From a bacterium (GTDB lineage Bacteria; Electryoneota; Electryoneia; Electryoneales; Electryoneaceae), in contig JAIOHU010000265.1 of the NCBI GenBank assembly GCA_019912845.1, positions 1-46,306 of the forward strand: a stretch of DNA of 46,306 nt. Direction: 5' to 3'. Below are positions 1,711 through 43,514 of the stretch, in pieces; the first letter of the stretch is position 1; every line of letters starts with the position of its first letter. The translations under genes and the position numbers were made by a program. The notes under the pieces were generated by a model. It was not told the DNA's origin. It saw nothing but the letters and a program-made list of their open reading frames with translations, and made no database searches.

Positions 1711-1741
1711 CCAACTCTGCTAATTCCGAGCTGGTCTTGGT

Positions 1742-1805
1742 CTTGGACTTATCCAAGGTTTATTAATTCAAGTGATGGGTCAGTTATACCCTGGATAAAT
1801 CCAGG
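1742..1805 (+). repeat. Paired-hairpin repeat (family B): CTTGGACTTATCCAAG ... CCTGGATAAATCCAGG
   Basis: Two perfect palindromic arms 32 nt apart; same arrangement at 9726-9793 (-), 30145-30209 (+), 42213-42278 (-). Confidence 0.85.
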
Positions 1806-1825
1806 ACCAATTCTGGATACAAACC

Positions 1826-9603: not shown

Positions 9604-9725
9604 TCGTGTGCCCTATGTTCATTGTTTTATGACTTGAGAATTGTGTACGAATTAGTATATAGCCTGTTCCAATGCTGCTGGTTCAGTCCTCTTGTGGAGC
9701 TGAATAACCTGGAATGGCTGATTAG

Positions 9726-9793
9726 CACTAGATTTATCCAGTATTAATCAGAGTCTCCACATCGAATTAGTAGACATTGGACAAGTCCAATGC
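9726..9793 (-). repeat. Paired-hairpin repeat (family B), minus orientation
   Basis: GCACTAGATTTATCCAGTAT ... CATTGGACAAGTCCAATG. Confidence 0.75.
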
Positions 9794-9892
9794 TAAATTT
9801 AGTAAAATTTGATTCAGTGAATGAAGGTATCGTGCAATATTTCCCACACTCACATTCAAATTCATATTCTGCATAGAATTAGCAAAAACAAA

Positions 9893-20490: not shown

Positions 20491-20945
20491 ACTATTTCGA
20501 AGATATTGTTAGGATGGTTCAATATAACATGTTGAGCCAGATAATAAAATTAATATTTCTGATTTCTCAAATTTTTTTGAATGATTAGATGGCTTTTTGC
20601 TCTATGGTGTGGGTAGAAAGCGAATAATAAGTGAAAACATCATCATTGGCAGGAAGCGTAGCGACGAAGCAATCCCAGGGTACATAAATCGAGATTACCT
20701 CACTTCGTTCGCAATATCATTGTTGAACCTTATATATCCCTTTACTAAACACTTGTAGAATAACAAGAGCCAGTTGAATTATTTTCATCGCTGAGGCATT
20801 ACACTGGATTATTGTGTTTTGATTGAGTAAAGTGTAAGTATTGATGATTACGCCTAGTAGTGTCTCACAGTCAATGTTCATTGATACTTGATCATGAGAT
20901 GACTGGCAGGAATTTCGTCTTTTGTCTGTTAACGTGGGGTGGGAA

Positions 20946-25371: not shown

Positions 25372-25463
25372 CCCGGGGATGAGTATATCTGTGCAGGATA
25401 AATCAGGATTCAGGAGTATTGATACACAAAATTGACTTCGATACTGCACCTCTCATCCCCGGG
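25372..25463. repeat. 92-bp element with perfect 12-bp terminal inverted repeats CCCGGGGATGAG/CTCATCCCCGGG and inner GTGCAG/CTGCAC
   Basis: Direct reading. Confidence 0.8.
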
Positions 25464-25482
25464 CCACCCAGAATTTGCTCAA

Positions 25483-28107: not shown

Positions 28108-28211
28108 GGAACGCCGAACTCCAGTTCGGCATGTAGTTGGGTGTGGCAAGTAGTTTGGAGCGCTGATCTCCAGTTCGGCAGGATGTTGGGAACACTACTC
28201 TAGAGTAGCAT
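28108..28211 (+). repeat. Family C repeat array (3 copies)
   Basis: GGAACGCCGAACTCCAGTTCGGCA; GGAGCGCTGATCTCCAGTTCGGCA; GGAACACTACTCTAGAGTAGCA. Confidence 0.8.
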
Positions 28212-28424: not shown

Positions 28425-29762
28425 CTACAAATTCGGCACCCCGGCAACACGAGCAGTCAGCGCAGGTGGTGGGTGACTGGAACGCTTCAAATTAACCAAC
28501 AGGTAACGCAAGGCATCCATCACATGATCATGTATGCCATCTTTTTCGGGAAGTTCACTGTTTTTCGCCCAGACATACCCTTCGAAACCAGTGATCAGCT
28601 CACTGCATCGTGGTGAGACCTTCAGCTTGATTTCACCATTTGCATCGAGGAGCATGCTACGGACTACCTCAACTCCGGCATTGATGGAAGAGGGACTATA
28701 GAGGATTTTGTACCCTTTCTCGTGCATCTGTTCTACGGAACTGATCCCGGAATCATTTCCGGATGCCCCTGCAGGATCAACACCAGACCAGACAAAATCC
28801 TTTTCGCTTAGTCCATAGCGGGCATCCACAGCTTCAATTTCTACCATCAACTGTGAGATCAGCCATTTGTTGCCCACCAGCGAGTCAAAGATGACCATTC
28901 TCCCTTCACTGTCCAGTTCAGCCCAGACAACAGCCGGTTTCAAATAACCGAAATCGATCCCACGGTAGAGCATGCCGCCTGGTTTGCCAGGGATATACTC
29001 CTCTTCGAGAACATGAACCTGGTTGTCGAATTGATCGTACACCTTGCCTTCAGCACCTTCGAAGGAGAGTTCGTACTCACGTCTCCATTTTGCGTCAGAT
29101 AAACCAGCACGTGCCCCCACTTCCCACTTCTGATCTTTGTCCTTATTCTCGCTGTAATGCATACGGTGGATGTAAAACTCTTTATCTCGACTGTGTACCA
29201 GTCTGGAAAACACATTGCTCGGACCATTTGGGGTAGAAACTCCGAGAAAACTCCCTCCGCTGTCAATAGCGGGTTTGACCGCTGACCAGATTTCCTCATC
29301 GCTGGGAGTAAATGCCATCTCATCCCAGAAAACAGTTCGAGGAGAGATGCCACGTACTGCAAATGGAGCTGCAGGTAAACTGAGAATACGTGAACCCAGT
29401 TCAGGGAAAGCCATTCCCAGCTTGGAAGGTTTGATTGTGTCGGTTGGAAGCTCACCTTCGAAATACTCAATGAGTTTCTGAATACGTTCGATCAACAGTT
29501 TTGCCGAACGTTCCTCTTTTGATAATACCAGGTGAATTCCAGGTCCGTGAGTCAATGCACGATGGAGGATATACGCACACCCGATCCAGCTCGCCATCAT
29601 TTGACGACTTTTTACCACGATCAGACGATTTTGCTGTTCCAGCAGCGAAGCGAAGGTCTCTACATAATCGAATTTCGTCACCGGACGAGGTTCAAAATGA
29701 TCGGGGTCTTCGGTACGGCATTGAAATAAAAATGAACTGAATGAGGTGTGTGAATTTGGCAT
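28425..29762 (-). CDS. Phage terminase large subunit
   Basis: RLIVVKSRQMMASW (Walker A-like), TVFWDEMAF (Walker B), nuclease motifs YRGIDFGY...WSGVDPAG...DHVMDALRY. Confidence 0.9.
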   Translation of the reverse strand: MPNSHTSFSSFLFQCRTEDPDHFEPRPVTKFDYVETFASLLEQQNRLIVVKSRQMMASWIGCAYILHRALTHGPGIHLVLSKEERSAKLLIERIQKLIEYFEGELPTDTIKPSKLGMAFPELGSRILSLPAAPFAVRGISPRTVFWDEMAFTPSDEEIWSAVKPAIDSGGSFLGVSTPNGPSNVFSRLVHSRDKEFYIHRMHYSENKDKDQKWEVGARAGLSDAKWRREYELSFEGAEGKVYDQFDNQVHVLEEEYIPGKPGGMLYRGIDFGYLKPAVVWAELDSEGRMVIFDSLVGNKWLISQLMVEIEAVDARYGLSEKDFVWSGVDPAGASGNDSGISSVEQMHEKGYKILYSPSSINAGVEVVRSMLLDANGEIKLKVSPRCSELITGFEGYVWAKNSELPEKDGIHDHVMDALRYLLVNLKRSSHPPPALTARVAGVPNL

Positions 29763-29780
29763 GTGAATTCCGGTTTTCCT

Positions 29781-29941
29781 GGAGCGCCAAACTCCAGTTT
29801 GGCATGGTTTTAGGAGCGCAACTCACCAGAGAGGCAGGTTGTTTGGAGCGCCGATCTCCAGTTTGGCATGGTTTTAGGAGCGCAACTCACCAGAGGAGCA
29901 GGTTGTTTGGAGCGCCGATCACGAGAGGGGCAGGTTGTTTA
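29781..29941 (+). repeat. Family C tandem array
   Basis: GGAGCGCCAAACTCCAGTTTGGCATGGTTTTAGGAGCGCAACTCACCAGAGAGGCAGGTTGTTT repeated about 2.5 times. Confidence 0.85.
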
Positions 29942-29978
29942 TTCGTCTTTGAAGTGAAGCGTAGCAGGTGGTTTGCTA

Positions 29979-30059
29979 GTCATTGCGAGGTAGTGAAGCG
30001 ACGAAGCAATCTATCTTTAAAACTCAACTGCCAGATTGCATCACTGTGTTCGCAATGAC
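29979..30059. repeat. Family E inverted repeat (GTCATTGCGAGG...GAAGCAATCT / AGATTGC...TTCGCAATGAC)
   Basis: 81 bp; same element at 31580-31661 and 32951-33031. Confidence 0.85.
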
Positions 30060-30101
30060 AAGGTCATATCCGTTCGTAAGGAAAAGGAAGCGACTCCTCC
30101 G

Positions 30102-30129
30102 TTCTGCGACATCCGTAGATGTTGCAGAA
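30102..30129. repeat. Family D hairpin TTCTGCGACATC-CGTA-GATGTTGCAGAA
   Basis: 12-bp stem with one G.T position. Confidence 0.8.
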
Positions 30130-30144
30130 AGCAGTGGTGGTTGG

Positions 30145-30209
30145 CTTTGGACTTGTCCAAAGTTTTATAAATCCAGTGATGAGCCATTTGACTTGGGATA
30201 AATCCCAAG
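30145..30209 (+). repeat. Paired-hairpin repeat (family B)
   Basis: CTTTGGACTTGTCCAAAG (30145-30162) and CTTGGGATAAATCCCAAG (30192-30209). Confidence 0.85.
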
Positions 30210-30232
30210 CCATTGATGAAAACTGTGCTGAC

Positions 30233-31057
30233 TCACTTTAACTGCAACTCACTGGGGAGAGGTTGGCTGATAAATCTCGAAAGCGTCGCTTGAGCACGAA
30301 GTTCAAAACGTCTGGCAAGCTCCATCAATCTTCTGGCACGATCATCCGCATGAGAGTCTGTTCCTCCTCCGAGCGAATGCAGTGCCAACGAATCTGAAAT
30401 TATTGCCAGGGTTAATTCCGTCGCACCAGTTTTTAGCCCTTGATCACTGGATTCGGTATCATATTCCAACTTTAACAAGGCAGCAATCTTGTCTTCAGCT
30501 TCAACAATTGCTTCGCTGATGAGGGTATCGGTTACAGCCGCTTCATTGACTTCATAACTTACCAGCATCGTTGCAGGATCAGGAATATCACCACCTACAA
30601 GGCGTTCCAGGGTTCCCGCAGACAGATCCACATCGTAATCTGAGCCGTTGGAATAGAGTGTCAATGGGATAAACCAGACATAGACAGATTCACCATCGCC
30701 GATACTCGAACCTGAAAGACGTTTAACCTTCCCTCCCACTGCATCCACCGCGAAGTCAACATTTTCAATAAATCGAGTTGAAAGGGCGAGATCATCGGTG
30801 AGCACAACCGAATTTCGCAGCACATTCTGAACACCAAGCCCTTGCCAGGATGTACCATTCAAGGTGAGTTGCTCAGGTCCTGAAGGATTTTCAGCCAGCA
30901 AACCAGCGACTCGCACACTTCCAGATAGCAGGTTTCTGTGCGGAAGCTGGATTTCAGCAGATCCTTCCAGGGTAATTTCATGATCAACCACCTCAAGACC
31001 ATTTACCAGGAATCCGAGCAGATGGATTTTCACAGTGTTGGCATCTGTCCAGCTCAT
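30233..31057 (-). CDS. Phage head-module hypothetical protein (connector/structural candidate)
   Basis: 274 aa; ATGA overlap with upstream ORF; lies within the head gene cluster. Confidence 0.55.
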   Translation of the reverse strand: MSWTDANTVKIHLLGFLVNGLEVVDHEITLEGSAEIQLPHRNLLSGSVRVAGLLAENPSGPEQLTLNGTSWQGLGVQNVLRNSVVLTDDLALSTRFIENVDFAVDAVGGKVKRLSGSSIGDGESVYVWFIPLTLYSNGSDYDVDLSAGTLERLVGGDIPDPATMLVSYEVNEAAVTDTLISEAIVEAEDKIAALLKLEYDTESSDQGLKTGATELTLAIISDSLALHSLGGGTDSHADDRARRLMELARRFELRAQATLSRFISQPLPSELQLK

Positions 31058-31511: not shown

Positions 31512-31711
31512 TTCCGCAACATCTGCGGATGTTGCGGAATTCCGGAGCGCCACTCTCCAGAGTGGCAGGTTTTTTTCTCGTCATTGCGAGGAAACGAAGC
31601 GACGAAGCAATCTCTATTTTCGTGGACAATTGCAAGATTGCTTCACTGCGTTCGCAATGACAATAGTGCAGCCATTGAGTTTGGTTTTGGAGCGCCGATC
31701 TCCAGATCGGC
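31512..31711. repeat. Composite repeat block D-C-E-C
   Basis: D 31512-31539 TTCCGCAACATC-TGCG-GATGTTGCGGAA; C 31544-31569; E 31580-31661; C ~31689-31711 GGAGCGCCGATCTCCAGATCGGCA. Confidence 0.85.
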
Positions 31712-31741
31712 ATTGAGTTGTCAATCCTTCAGTTTTCTGGA

Positions 31742-32821
31742 TTAGTAATCACTCAACTTACGTGCGTCATCAACCATCACCGTATACACCGATTCCTTGG
31801 AAACAACTGCTGTTTCGAGTTTACGTTCGATGACCTTCTCCGCTTCGATCATCAGGGGTTGGCTGACCGATTCACGGATAGCAAAACGTGCATCCATCGC
31901 CATTACCTCCGTCGCCGTTGCGGAAGGCACCGCAACCAGCTTGGCATTCACTGGAAGCAGTGAGCCGTAATTTCCACTCTTCTGAAACAACGACGCCGCG
32001 GTAAAAGTATGGGGATCCTGGAATTGACTCATATTGAGGATGGTTTCGATATCTGCACGATTGGCGAGGATATGGGTCATCCGTGCCGGTACATCAAAAC
32101 TGGAGGCGAGGTGAACCAGATCAGTGTACGCGAAGGTACCTGCCTGTCCCGTGAAAACATCAGTGGCAGCGGGGCTTGTGCCGTCGCCATCTTTAATCAT
32201 GGTATAAATGGAGTCTACTTCATCGTATGCGAGCTGAGCACCGATCCACCAGAGAAAAACACGGAATTCCGCAAGTTTCTGGTTCTTCACAATCTTGTAA
32301 GCGAAATCAAATTGACGTCCACGGTCGATAATCGCAGTTTCCTTGTCACGGTAGAGTAGTTGCACACGGGGGTATGCTGCACCACCAGAGGCACGTTTTG
32401 CGACACTCTTCTTTGCGTTTTCCGTTGAGATGTAAATGGGACGTACTGTTGGTCCGCTTTCGGGCACAGTCACCGCGATCAATTCGGTCGGATCCTGAAC
32501 CATTTTATATCCTCGACGAATTTCACGAAGGATATATTCCGGCATCAGGATCATCGCACCACCGACGAAAAATTGTTCGACAGTAATCGCGCCATTTCCT
32601 GCGGCACGGATGTCATGAACTGCGAGTTGACGTTCGAATGCATCCAGCTCACCGACAGGTTTGCCGTTGACATCTTTTGGGCTCGGATCGAGGGTTTCCA
32701 ACATTTCACTGAGTGTAATTCCCAGTTCCTGGGCTTCATGGTAGAGGGAAAGATTCGCAGCACGTGAATGTTCCACAATCGTGGATTTCAGGTTACGCGC
32801 TGCTGTCAAATCAATGGACAT
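31742..32821 (-). CDS. HK97-fold-type major capsid protein
   Basis: N-terminal helical arm, central beta-rich region, C-term LLPVNAKLVAVPSATATEVMAMDARFAIRESVSQPLMIEAEKVIERKLETAVVSKESVYTVMVDDARKL. Confidence 0.75.
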   Translation of the reverse strand: MSIDLTAARNLKSTIVEHSRAANLSLYHEAQELGITLSEMLETLDPSPKDVNGKPVGELDAFERQLAVHDIRAAGNGAITVEQFFVGGAMILMPEYILREIRRGYKMVQDPTELIAVTVPESGPTVRPIYISTENAKKSVAKRASGGAAYPRVQLLYRDKETAIIDRGRQFDFAYKIVKNQKLAEFRVFLWWIGAQLAYDEVDSIYTMIKDGDGTSPAATDVFTGQAGTFAYTDLVHLASSFDVPARMTHILANRADIETILNMSQFQDPHTFTAASLFQKSGNYGSLLPVNAKLVAVPSATATEVMAMDARFAIRESVSQPLMIEAEKVIERKLETAVVSKESVYTVMVDDARKLSDY

Positions 32822-32869: not shown

Positions 32870-33031
32870 GGAGCGCCGAACTCCAGTTTGGCAAGTCAGG
32901 TTTTGGTGTTTGCAAGGAGTGCCACTATGCAGAGTGGCAGGTGGTTTGTCGTCATTGCGAGGTAGCGTAGCGACGAAGCAATCTCTATGTCACAGTCGAA
33001 AGCTAGATTGCTTCACTTCGTTCGCAATGAC
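32870..33031. repeat. Composite repeat block C-C-E
   Basis: C 32870-32893, C 32917-32941, E 32951-33031. Confidence 0.85.
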
Positions 33032-33059
33032 ATAATTCAATAATTTCATAATTTCATAA

Positions 33060-42138: not shown

Positions 42139-42212
42139 TCACTCAGTTGATTATTACACCGCAGACAATTACAACATTATTACCAGATTAATTCGCAGAA
42201 GTGGCAGCTTGG

Positions 42213-42278
42213 CCCTGGATTTATCCAGGGTCTAATAGCTCCATTACCAGCGTTATTACACATTGAACAAGTCCAATG
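42213..42278 (-). repeat. Paired-hairpin repeat (family B), minus orientation
   Basis: CCCTGGATTTATCCAGGG (42213-42230) and CATTGAACAAGTCCAATG (42261-42278). Confidence 0.85.
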
Positions 42279-42338
42279 CCAGCGGTGAAATCATCTGAAT
42301 TGGTCCATTGGTAACTCTCTCGCCCCTTGAATTAATCC

Positions 42339-43490: not shown

Positions 43491-43514
43491 GGAGCGCCAA
43501 TCTCCAGATTGGCA
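43491..43514 (+). repeat. Family C repeat GGAGCGCCAATCTCCAGATTGGCA
   Basis: Matches family C with a compensated stem. Confidence 0.8.

Follow-up and report, generated by a model that had tools for sequence, protein, structure and literature searches.

REPs are tagged palindromes, the tag being most often GTAG, that form inverted doublets, and a RAYT gene flanked by REPs constitutes a REPtron (PMC8266576, PMC3116915). RAYTs cut REPs in vitro; the ends of the mobile unit and its target are poorly known, and how REPs spread is an open question (PMC8266576). REP heterodimers, the two halves of which differ in stem or loop, have already been described, as have composite inverted repeats made of a REP and a further stem-loop (PMC3733652). 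Among the TnpA-REP proteins, subclass 2.4 is reported to accompany REPs that carry GT[AG]G and have three G-C pairs at the base of the stem, and subclass 2.6, which is found mostly in Bacteroidetes, to accompany atypical hairpins that lack GT[AG]G (PMC6006769).

The repeats described here were found in a window of 46,306 nt (the whole stretch of DNA analysed, contig C195 of its assembly). They share with REPINs of the Pseudomonas fluorescens SBW25 type inverted REPs at a fixed distance, a high copy number, an extragenic location, arms that are better conserved than the spacer between them, and the presence of a gene for a Y1 transposase flanked by the same REPs (PMC3116915). We propose that they are a REP/REPIN population of non-autonomous elements, which a RAYT (TnpA-REP, an HuH/Y1 transposase) of the same genome mobilises while they are single-stranded and folded, and give this reading a probability of roughly 0.8.

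Copies in the window and the genome-wide family

A preliminary description of this DNA had recorded four dispersed copies of a two-hairpin repeat. All four were present at the positions and on the strands reported (Table 1), and in each of them the order of the hairpins, their spacing and the stem variants that preserve pairing were as described. A covariance-model search recovered the four copies, including A and B, which were matched although they lay outside the seed of the model, and neither spacing nor pairing was lost in further copies from the genome. All four are intergenic.

Table 1. Repeats and neighbouring features of the window, numbered from its first nucleotide; 'core' is the extent given in the preliminary description
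Feature	Position	Strand	Covariance model	Details
Copy A, REP doublet	1737..1811	+	65.2 bits, not in seed	Core 1742-1805; tag TTGG 1737-1740; hairpin 1 1741-1758; hairpin 2 1789-1806; doublet closed by CCAA 1807-1810; outer arms either lost or degenerate
Copy B, REP doublet	30120..30243	+	64.4 bits, not in seed	Core 30145-30209; tag TTGG 30141-30144; hairpin 1 30145-30162 (CTTTGGA-CTTG-TCCAAAG); hairpin 2 30192-30209 (CTTGGGA-TAAA-TCCCAAG); the two REPs are of different subtypes (heterodimer); outer arms degenerate
Copy C, full-length element (~131 nt)	9693..9824	-	86.9 bits	Core 9726-9793; outer arms degenerate
Copy D, full-length element	42181..42310	-	109.3 bits	Core 42213-42278; outer arms recognisable
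120-nt tandem array, ~4 units, contig end	1..462	.	weak matches	One single REP per unit, REPs on - strand: TTGG-CTTGGGATTTATCCCAAG-TTTAA at about 50-77, 169-196, 289-316, 409-436
Second REP family member (GGGTGGCNCGGGG)	25457..25469	-		Same REP flanks the C288 RAYT
Dispersed palindrome family (GTCATTGCGAGG...GAAGCGACGAAGCAATC...GATTGCTTCACTTCGTTCGCAATGAC)	29978-30062, 31580-31671, 32951-33032, 20643-20715			Host repeat for empty-site comparison; the first three are uninterrupted copies of the CATTGCGAG repeat
Short repeat with self-complementary variants (GGAGCGCCnnnCTCCAGnnnGGCA)	28108-28180, 29781-29932, 31544-31712, 32870-32939, 43491-43514			32-nt-spaced cluster at 29769-29939, adjoining copy B
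Terminase-like gene	28425-29762
Phage-capsid-like gene (weak)	31742-32821

Between 28425 and 32821, where palindromic repeats are crowded together, the window may hold the remains of a prophage. Por-type secretion tails hint that the host may fall in the Bacteroidota-related (FCB) part of the tree. The adenylosuccinate lyase of the window had its best match, at 65%, in an uncultured bacterium, and reached about 53% with records from Ignavibacteria/Bacteroidota and Acidobacteria.

The assembly that was searched comprises 4.65 Mb in 297 contigs and is 92% complete, and genome-wide statements rest on pattern and model searches and on the stretches fetched around the matches. The 14-nt core TTGGACTTRTCCAA had 91 exact matches against one for the reversed control, and a pattern for the single hairpin (a single REP) had at least 293 against none in the control; because of these counts the window copies are far beyond chance. 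The covariance model gave at least 150 matches, a few loci being counted on both strands, and the four window copies belong to a family of about 130 or more scattered 131-nt palindromic elements. These are dispersed over many contigs, some of them in tandem arrays, and they are extragenic, as 5 of 68 copy centres lay inside ORFs of at least 120 aa compared with 81% of positions drawn at random from those stretches. REPs in the broad sense are palindromes of 20-50 nt that occur in many copies and are mostly intergenic, and the family, named here after its TTGG tag, has each of these properties. Among the genomes searched it was found only in this one: no copy of the 131-nt family was present in 60 relatives, 6 of them from the same taxonomic family, and the exact two-core pattern had no match in the GTDB representative genomes, a set from which the own or very near genomes may be excluded.

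Several arrangements of the repeats were observed in addition to the dispersed copies. L053 (contig C167) and L075 (contig C275) are BIME-like tandem arrays of 3-4 REP doublets with a 224-nt period, in which the doublets alternate with another palindromic repeat (GGGGATGACGAG type). The array at the contig end in the window is built on the REP subtype that also flanks a RAYT gene; it holds in addition a CCCGG...CCGGGATGAC palindrome, and a 112-aa ORF inside it (110-448) is probably spurious. L003, L008, L058, L068 and L071 are half-elements in which a GCGTCATTCCAGC...AGCTGGAATCCAG palindrome takes the place of the second arm, which suggests that these are composite or broken doublets.

Anatomy of the REP unit and of the 131-nt palindrome

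The two hairpins had been described as non-identical. They do differ in sequence, and form a REP heterodimer, but they are not unrelated, being inverted and diverged copies of one REP. Read on opposite strands they are TTGGC-ATTGGACTTGTCCAAT-GTTTAATA and TTGGC-CCTGGATTTATCCAGG-GTTTAATA, that is, a single unit, so that the repeat consists of one REP-like unit present twice in inverted orientation. This unit consists of the tag TTGG (sometimes CTGG), a 7-4-7 hairpin with a stem of 7 bp and a loop of 4 nt, and a 3' TYTAAT. The loop is CTTG in one arm and TTTA in the other, and most doublets combine the two. Among 193 distinct REPs from the fetched stretches the tag was TTGG in 145 and CTGG in 47, in a search that itself required a GG tag; in alignments that were not conditioned on the tag, T30 and GG31-32 were invariant or nearly so. 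The hairpin thus carries at its 5' foot the conserved tetranucleotide that is typical of REPs, and the inverted REPs stand, as in REPINs, at a preferred distance, the tag-to-tag length being exactly 74 nt in 34 of 54 doublets.

The extent first described was right for the core of the doublet, but the element reaches further, to 131 nt with outer inverted repeats. Its bounds were taken from the places of all 91 core matches, fetched and aligned with their flanks: in most of them similarity begins at TAGTGGATC and stops at GATCCACTA, and the sequence beyond is unrelated. In most copies the doublet sits at the centre of this palindrome (TAGTGGATC…GATCCACTA), for which the consensus is TAGTGGATCAACTCACATGCTTTGAcTG-TTGG-CATTGGACTTGTCCAATG-TTTAATAAcTCnAGTAATGGAnnTATTAGA-CCCTGGATAAATCCAGGG-CCAA-TCTGTCATTCCAGGTGAATCAATCCACTA. 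In copies that had not been selected by the core, conservation was highest at the REPs (0.84-0.88) and lowest at the outer ends (0.49-0.59), the latter pairing in 58% of cells.

A single strand could adopt either of two structures, one with two local hairpins in a cloverleaf and one with a long hairpin in which arm 1 pairs with arm 2. Single-strand folding gave the two local hairpins with DNA parameters (z -5.9) and the one long hairpin with RNA parameters (z -8.45). Pair changes were counted in 33 mostly core-selected copies and in 35 copies not selected by the core. The local hairpins had 30 two-sided changes in the former set and 61 in the latter, in each case with 0 of 500 shuffles; at one stem position of the unselected copies, for example, the pair was A-U in 19, U-A in 14 and G-C in 1. 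Covariation did not support the long hairpin as a conserved structure, with 17 two-sided changes in the core-selected copies (148 of 500 shuffles) and 41 in the unselected copies (64 of 500). The shuffles ignore the relatedness of the copies, and slid controls agree with them. As an excess of two-sided changes was found for the local hairpins and none for the long one, the separate hairpins are the conserved structure.

One explanation for strong hairpins with compensatory changes is that the repeats are transcribed RNA elements, such as bidirectional terminators, mRNA stabilisers or structured RNAs, that are kept for their function and are not mobile DNA. Their intergenic position and the stable RNA fold would fit with this. 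It is hard to reconcile with the sharp outer boundaries and unrelated flanks, with one copy having precisely split a duplicated repeat (see below), or with the tandem arrays and the copies that flank a transposase gene. Moreover, an Rfam scan of the window matched no family and no copy was found in the sister genera, and we regard an RNA function as very improbable.

Insertion of the palindrome at TA

Copy L043 stands inside a copy of another repeat, with an uninterrupted sister copy of that repeat beside it. The empty site reads GCCAGC-TA-AAACCATGCTGGCATGACG and the filled site GCCAGC-TA[element]TA-GAACCAGGCTGGCATGACG. The insertion therefore comprises the entire palindrome, a unit of about 129 nt, together with one TA. 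On at least one occasion the 131-nt palindrome was moved intact, and at a TA; the base-precise, TA-flanked junction comes from this one copy. The flanking TA pair may reflect duplication of the target, in the style of DDE transposases, or may mark two TA-containing cleavage sites in the style of IS200/IS605. Another copy, L244, lies between the two arms of a CATTGCGAG repeat, uninterrupted copies of which occur in the window (Table 1). L043, L244 and L066 gave a hint of a preference for the loops of other palindromes; this was rejected, as flank complementarity over 68 copies was no higher than in mismatched controls.

A single junction of this kind would also fit a TA-duplicating DDE transposase, and such an enzyme acting on the outer ends is the chief rival to mobilisation by a RAYT. 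The 131-nt form would then be a classical MITE, its outer repeats the substrate of a TA-specific transposase of the IS630/Tc1-mariner type, and the REP doublet would have been captured and be hitchhiking. The sharply bounded outer inverted repeats (TAGTGGATC ends), the apparent TA duplication in L043, the lack of outer arms on the REPs beside the RAYT gene and the presence of IS630-type DDE_3 genes in the genome are all as such a MITE would have them. However, matches to the end sequence (up to 2 mismatches) were nearly all this element's own ends, and the few others were at chance level (5 control matches) with none of them paired. No autonomous transposon with TAGTGGATCAACTCAC ends was found in the 92%-complete assembly, where 0 of 3 DDE_3 loci carried such ends, and in the unselected copies conservation peaks at the REP arms and not at the incompletely paired ends. 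We therefore consider a DDE-driven MITE to be unlikely. ERIC/IRU and other palindromic MITEs are, as here, imperfect palindromes of ~130 nt with an intergenic location and an apparent TA junction. The TTGG family differs from them in having REP hairpins and a linked RAYT.

RAYT genes and their associated REPs

Mobilisation by a RAYT is supported by the transposase genes of the same genome. There were six matches to Y1_Tnp (PF01797), and a model scan around all of them placed members of the family only at a RAYT locus on contig C102, on both sides of the gene. The associated transposase for which the preliminary description had suggested a search is therefore present, and its comparison of the repeat with a REPIN/BIME-like doublet is borne out by the inverted REPs, fixed length, high copy number, extragenic location, tandem arrays and RAYT linkage.

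The C102 ORF encodes 178 aa with NHIH, WQ and YIHNNP, so that the HuH motif and the catalytic tyrosine are both present. Its match to NCBIfam REP_Tyr_transpos (NF047646) had an E-value of 4e-21 and 75.4 bits, slightly below the cut-off of 80. Compared alone with solved structures the protein gave only a marginal, unrelated match; a profile of 17 homologues (this RAYT and 16 others) was needed, and its best match was E. coli TnpA-REP (4ER8, E 1.8e-10). The flanking REPs are TTGG-CTTGGGATTTATCCCAAG-TTTAATGG and TTGG-CCTTGGATTTATCCAAGG-TCTAATAA, in inverted pairs. They are without conserved outer arms and are spaced at ~98 nt as against 74 in the dispersed doublets, the 131-nt form being absent from the RAYT locus.

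A paralogue on contig C109 (L217, 1636-2169) is 94% identical to the C102 copy, and its flanking genes are common to both contigs; the two loci may be a duplication or strain variants. This gene is flanked by further REPs, one of which, TTGG-CCTTGGACTTGTCCAAGG, contains the core of the preliminary description, and its HuH motif is changed to NPIH with loss of the first histidine. At both C102 and C109, members of the dispersed REP family thus stand to either side of a gene for a Y1 transposase, which is the arrangement that defines a REPtron.

Another possibility, raised by the capacity of an imperfect palindrome to fold single-stranded with unpaired bases, is that the copies are recombination sites of a tyrosine recombinase, akin to attC cassettes. 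The copies are, however, scattered over many contigs and not cassette-spaced, no attC consensus was recognised by eye, and the associated gene encodes a Y1 HuH transposase and not an integrase; of the readings considered we hold this to be the least probable.

A third RAYT, on contig C288 (L216), is a paralogue of 51% identity and is flanked by a different REP, GGGTGGC[C/A]CGGGGAT. This second REP family (GGGTGGCNCGGGG), which is of the GTGG type, has 42 exact copies in the genome against 0 in the control, and one of them lies in the window (Table 1). Two paralogous RAYTs therefore accompany two REP families in one genome, C102 going with TTGG REPs and C288 with GTGG REPs. RAYTs of 33-46% identity are present in 17 of 39 genomes from sister genera and other families of the phylum; several that were inspected are flanked by GGGTGG-CCCGGGG-CTTG-CCCCGGG-TTT and similar GTGG-tagged units, and one GTGG-type REP reaches 192 copies in a sister genome. 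All these REPs thus have a common plan (a foot of TGG-C and a stem, in many cases with a loop of the CTTG type, and a 3' TTT), and the stem and tag differ with the RAYT.

Proposed mode of spread

From these associations we infer that the C102 RAYT acts on the TTGG REPs, and likewise the positions at which it would cleave. The RAYT would bind the arms when these are folded in single-stranded DNA, such as the template of the lagging strand. The tag would direct it to cleavage sites close to the element ends, and it would paste the unit in on the 3' side of a site that contains TA. The element would then stay in intergenic space, where it is tolerated. Perhaps, as suggested in the literature, the imperfect pairing of a heterodimer may reduce the clearance of long palindromes. 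That the C102 RAYT moves the 131-nt form itself seems to us somewhat more probable than not. Several points count against a REPIN/RAYT origin: the tag is TTGG or CTGG, whereas REPs that have been characterised carry GT[AG]G, the score against NCBIfam falls just short of the cut-off, outer arms are missing at the RAYT locus and one RAYT copy has NPIH.

More tentatively, and at rather less than even odds, the family may represent a RAYT-mobilised element with defined termini, a three-level nested palindrome (outer inverted ends, heterodimeric REP arms and an inner stem) that enters TA as a 129-nt insertion, for which the tag of the RAYT has changed from GTGG to TTGG with a GTGG REPtron persisting in the genome. 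If so, tag recognition could be mapped with the two RAYTs as a naturally occurring pair, and this would be a REPIN for which sequence alone reveals both the ends and the target. The nested insertion does allow the ends of a mobile unit to be read here, and, since two paralogous RAYTs go with differently tagged REP families (TTGG and GTGG), recognition of the tag and stem is directly testable. The findings also add a lineage that has been little sampled to those in which a RAYT is paired with REPs of altered tag.

Comparison with known systems

The tag that defines the GTAG/CGTC REP superfamilies (PMC3733652) is replaced in this family by TTGG or CTGG, and it is for this reason that we do not file it in either superfamily, while its features agree with the broader descriptions of REPs, REPINs and REPtrons. 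Compared with REPINs of the SBW25 type (PMC3116915), the tag is again TTGG/CTGG in place of GTAG, the doublet is regularly a heterodimer of a CTTG-loop and a TTTA-loop REP, and an outer palindrome of ~28 nt on each side is conserved and is part of the inserted unit. The C102 RAYT resembles TnpA-REP subclasses 2.4 and 2.6 (RAYT groups 4 and 5), as its 178 aa with NHIH, WQ and YIHNNP fit their signatures; these motifs fit both subclasses and do not separate them (PMC6006769). The REPs of the relatives, which carry GTGG and have three G-C pairs at the base of the stem, resemble those of class 2.4. The host differs in that its lineage apparently lies outside the named Bacteroidota. Heterodimers and composite repeats are shared with the GTAG REPs that accompany the RAYT genes of Pseudomonas putida and P. 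fluorescens (PMC3733652). In the composites of those species the REP portions have a GTAG tag and are degenerate (PMC3733652), whereas here the REP arms are the best conserved part and the outer arms are the ends of the insertion. Relative to the papers cited here, two features are apparently new: a single genome holds a TTGG-tagged family as well as one of the GTGG type, and the doublet carries inverted outer ends along when it moves. In all, the TTGG family is a lineage-specific version of the known REP/REPIN kind.
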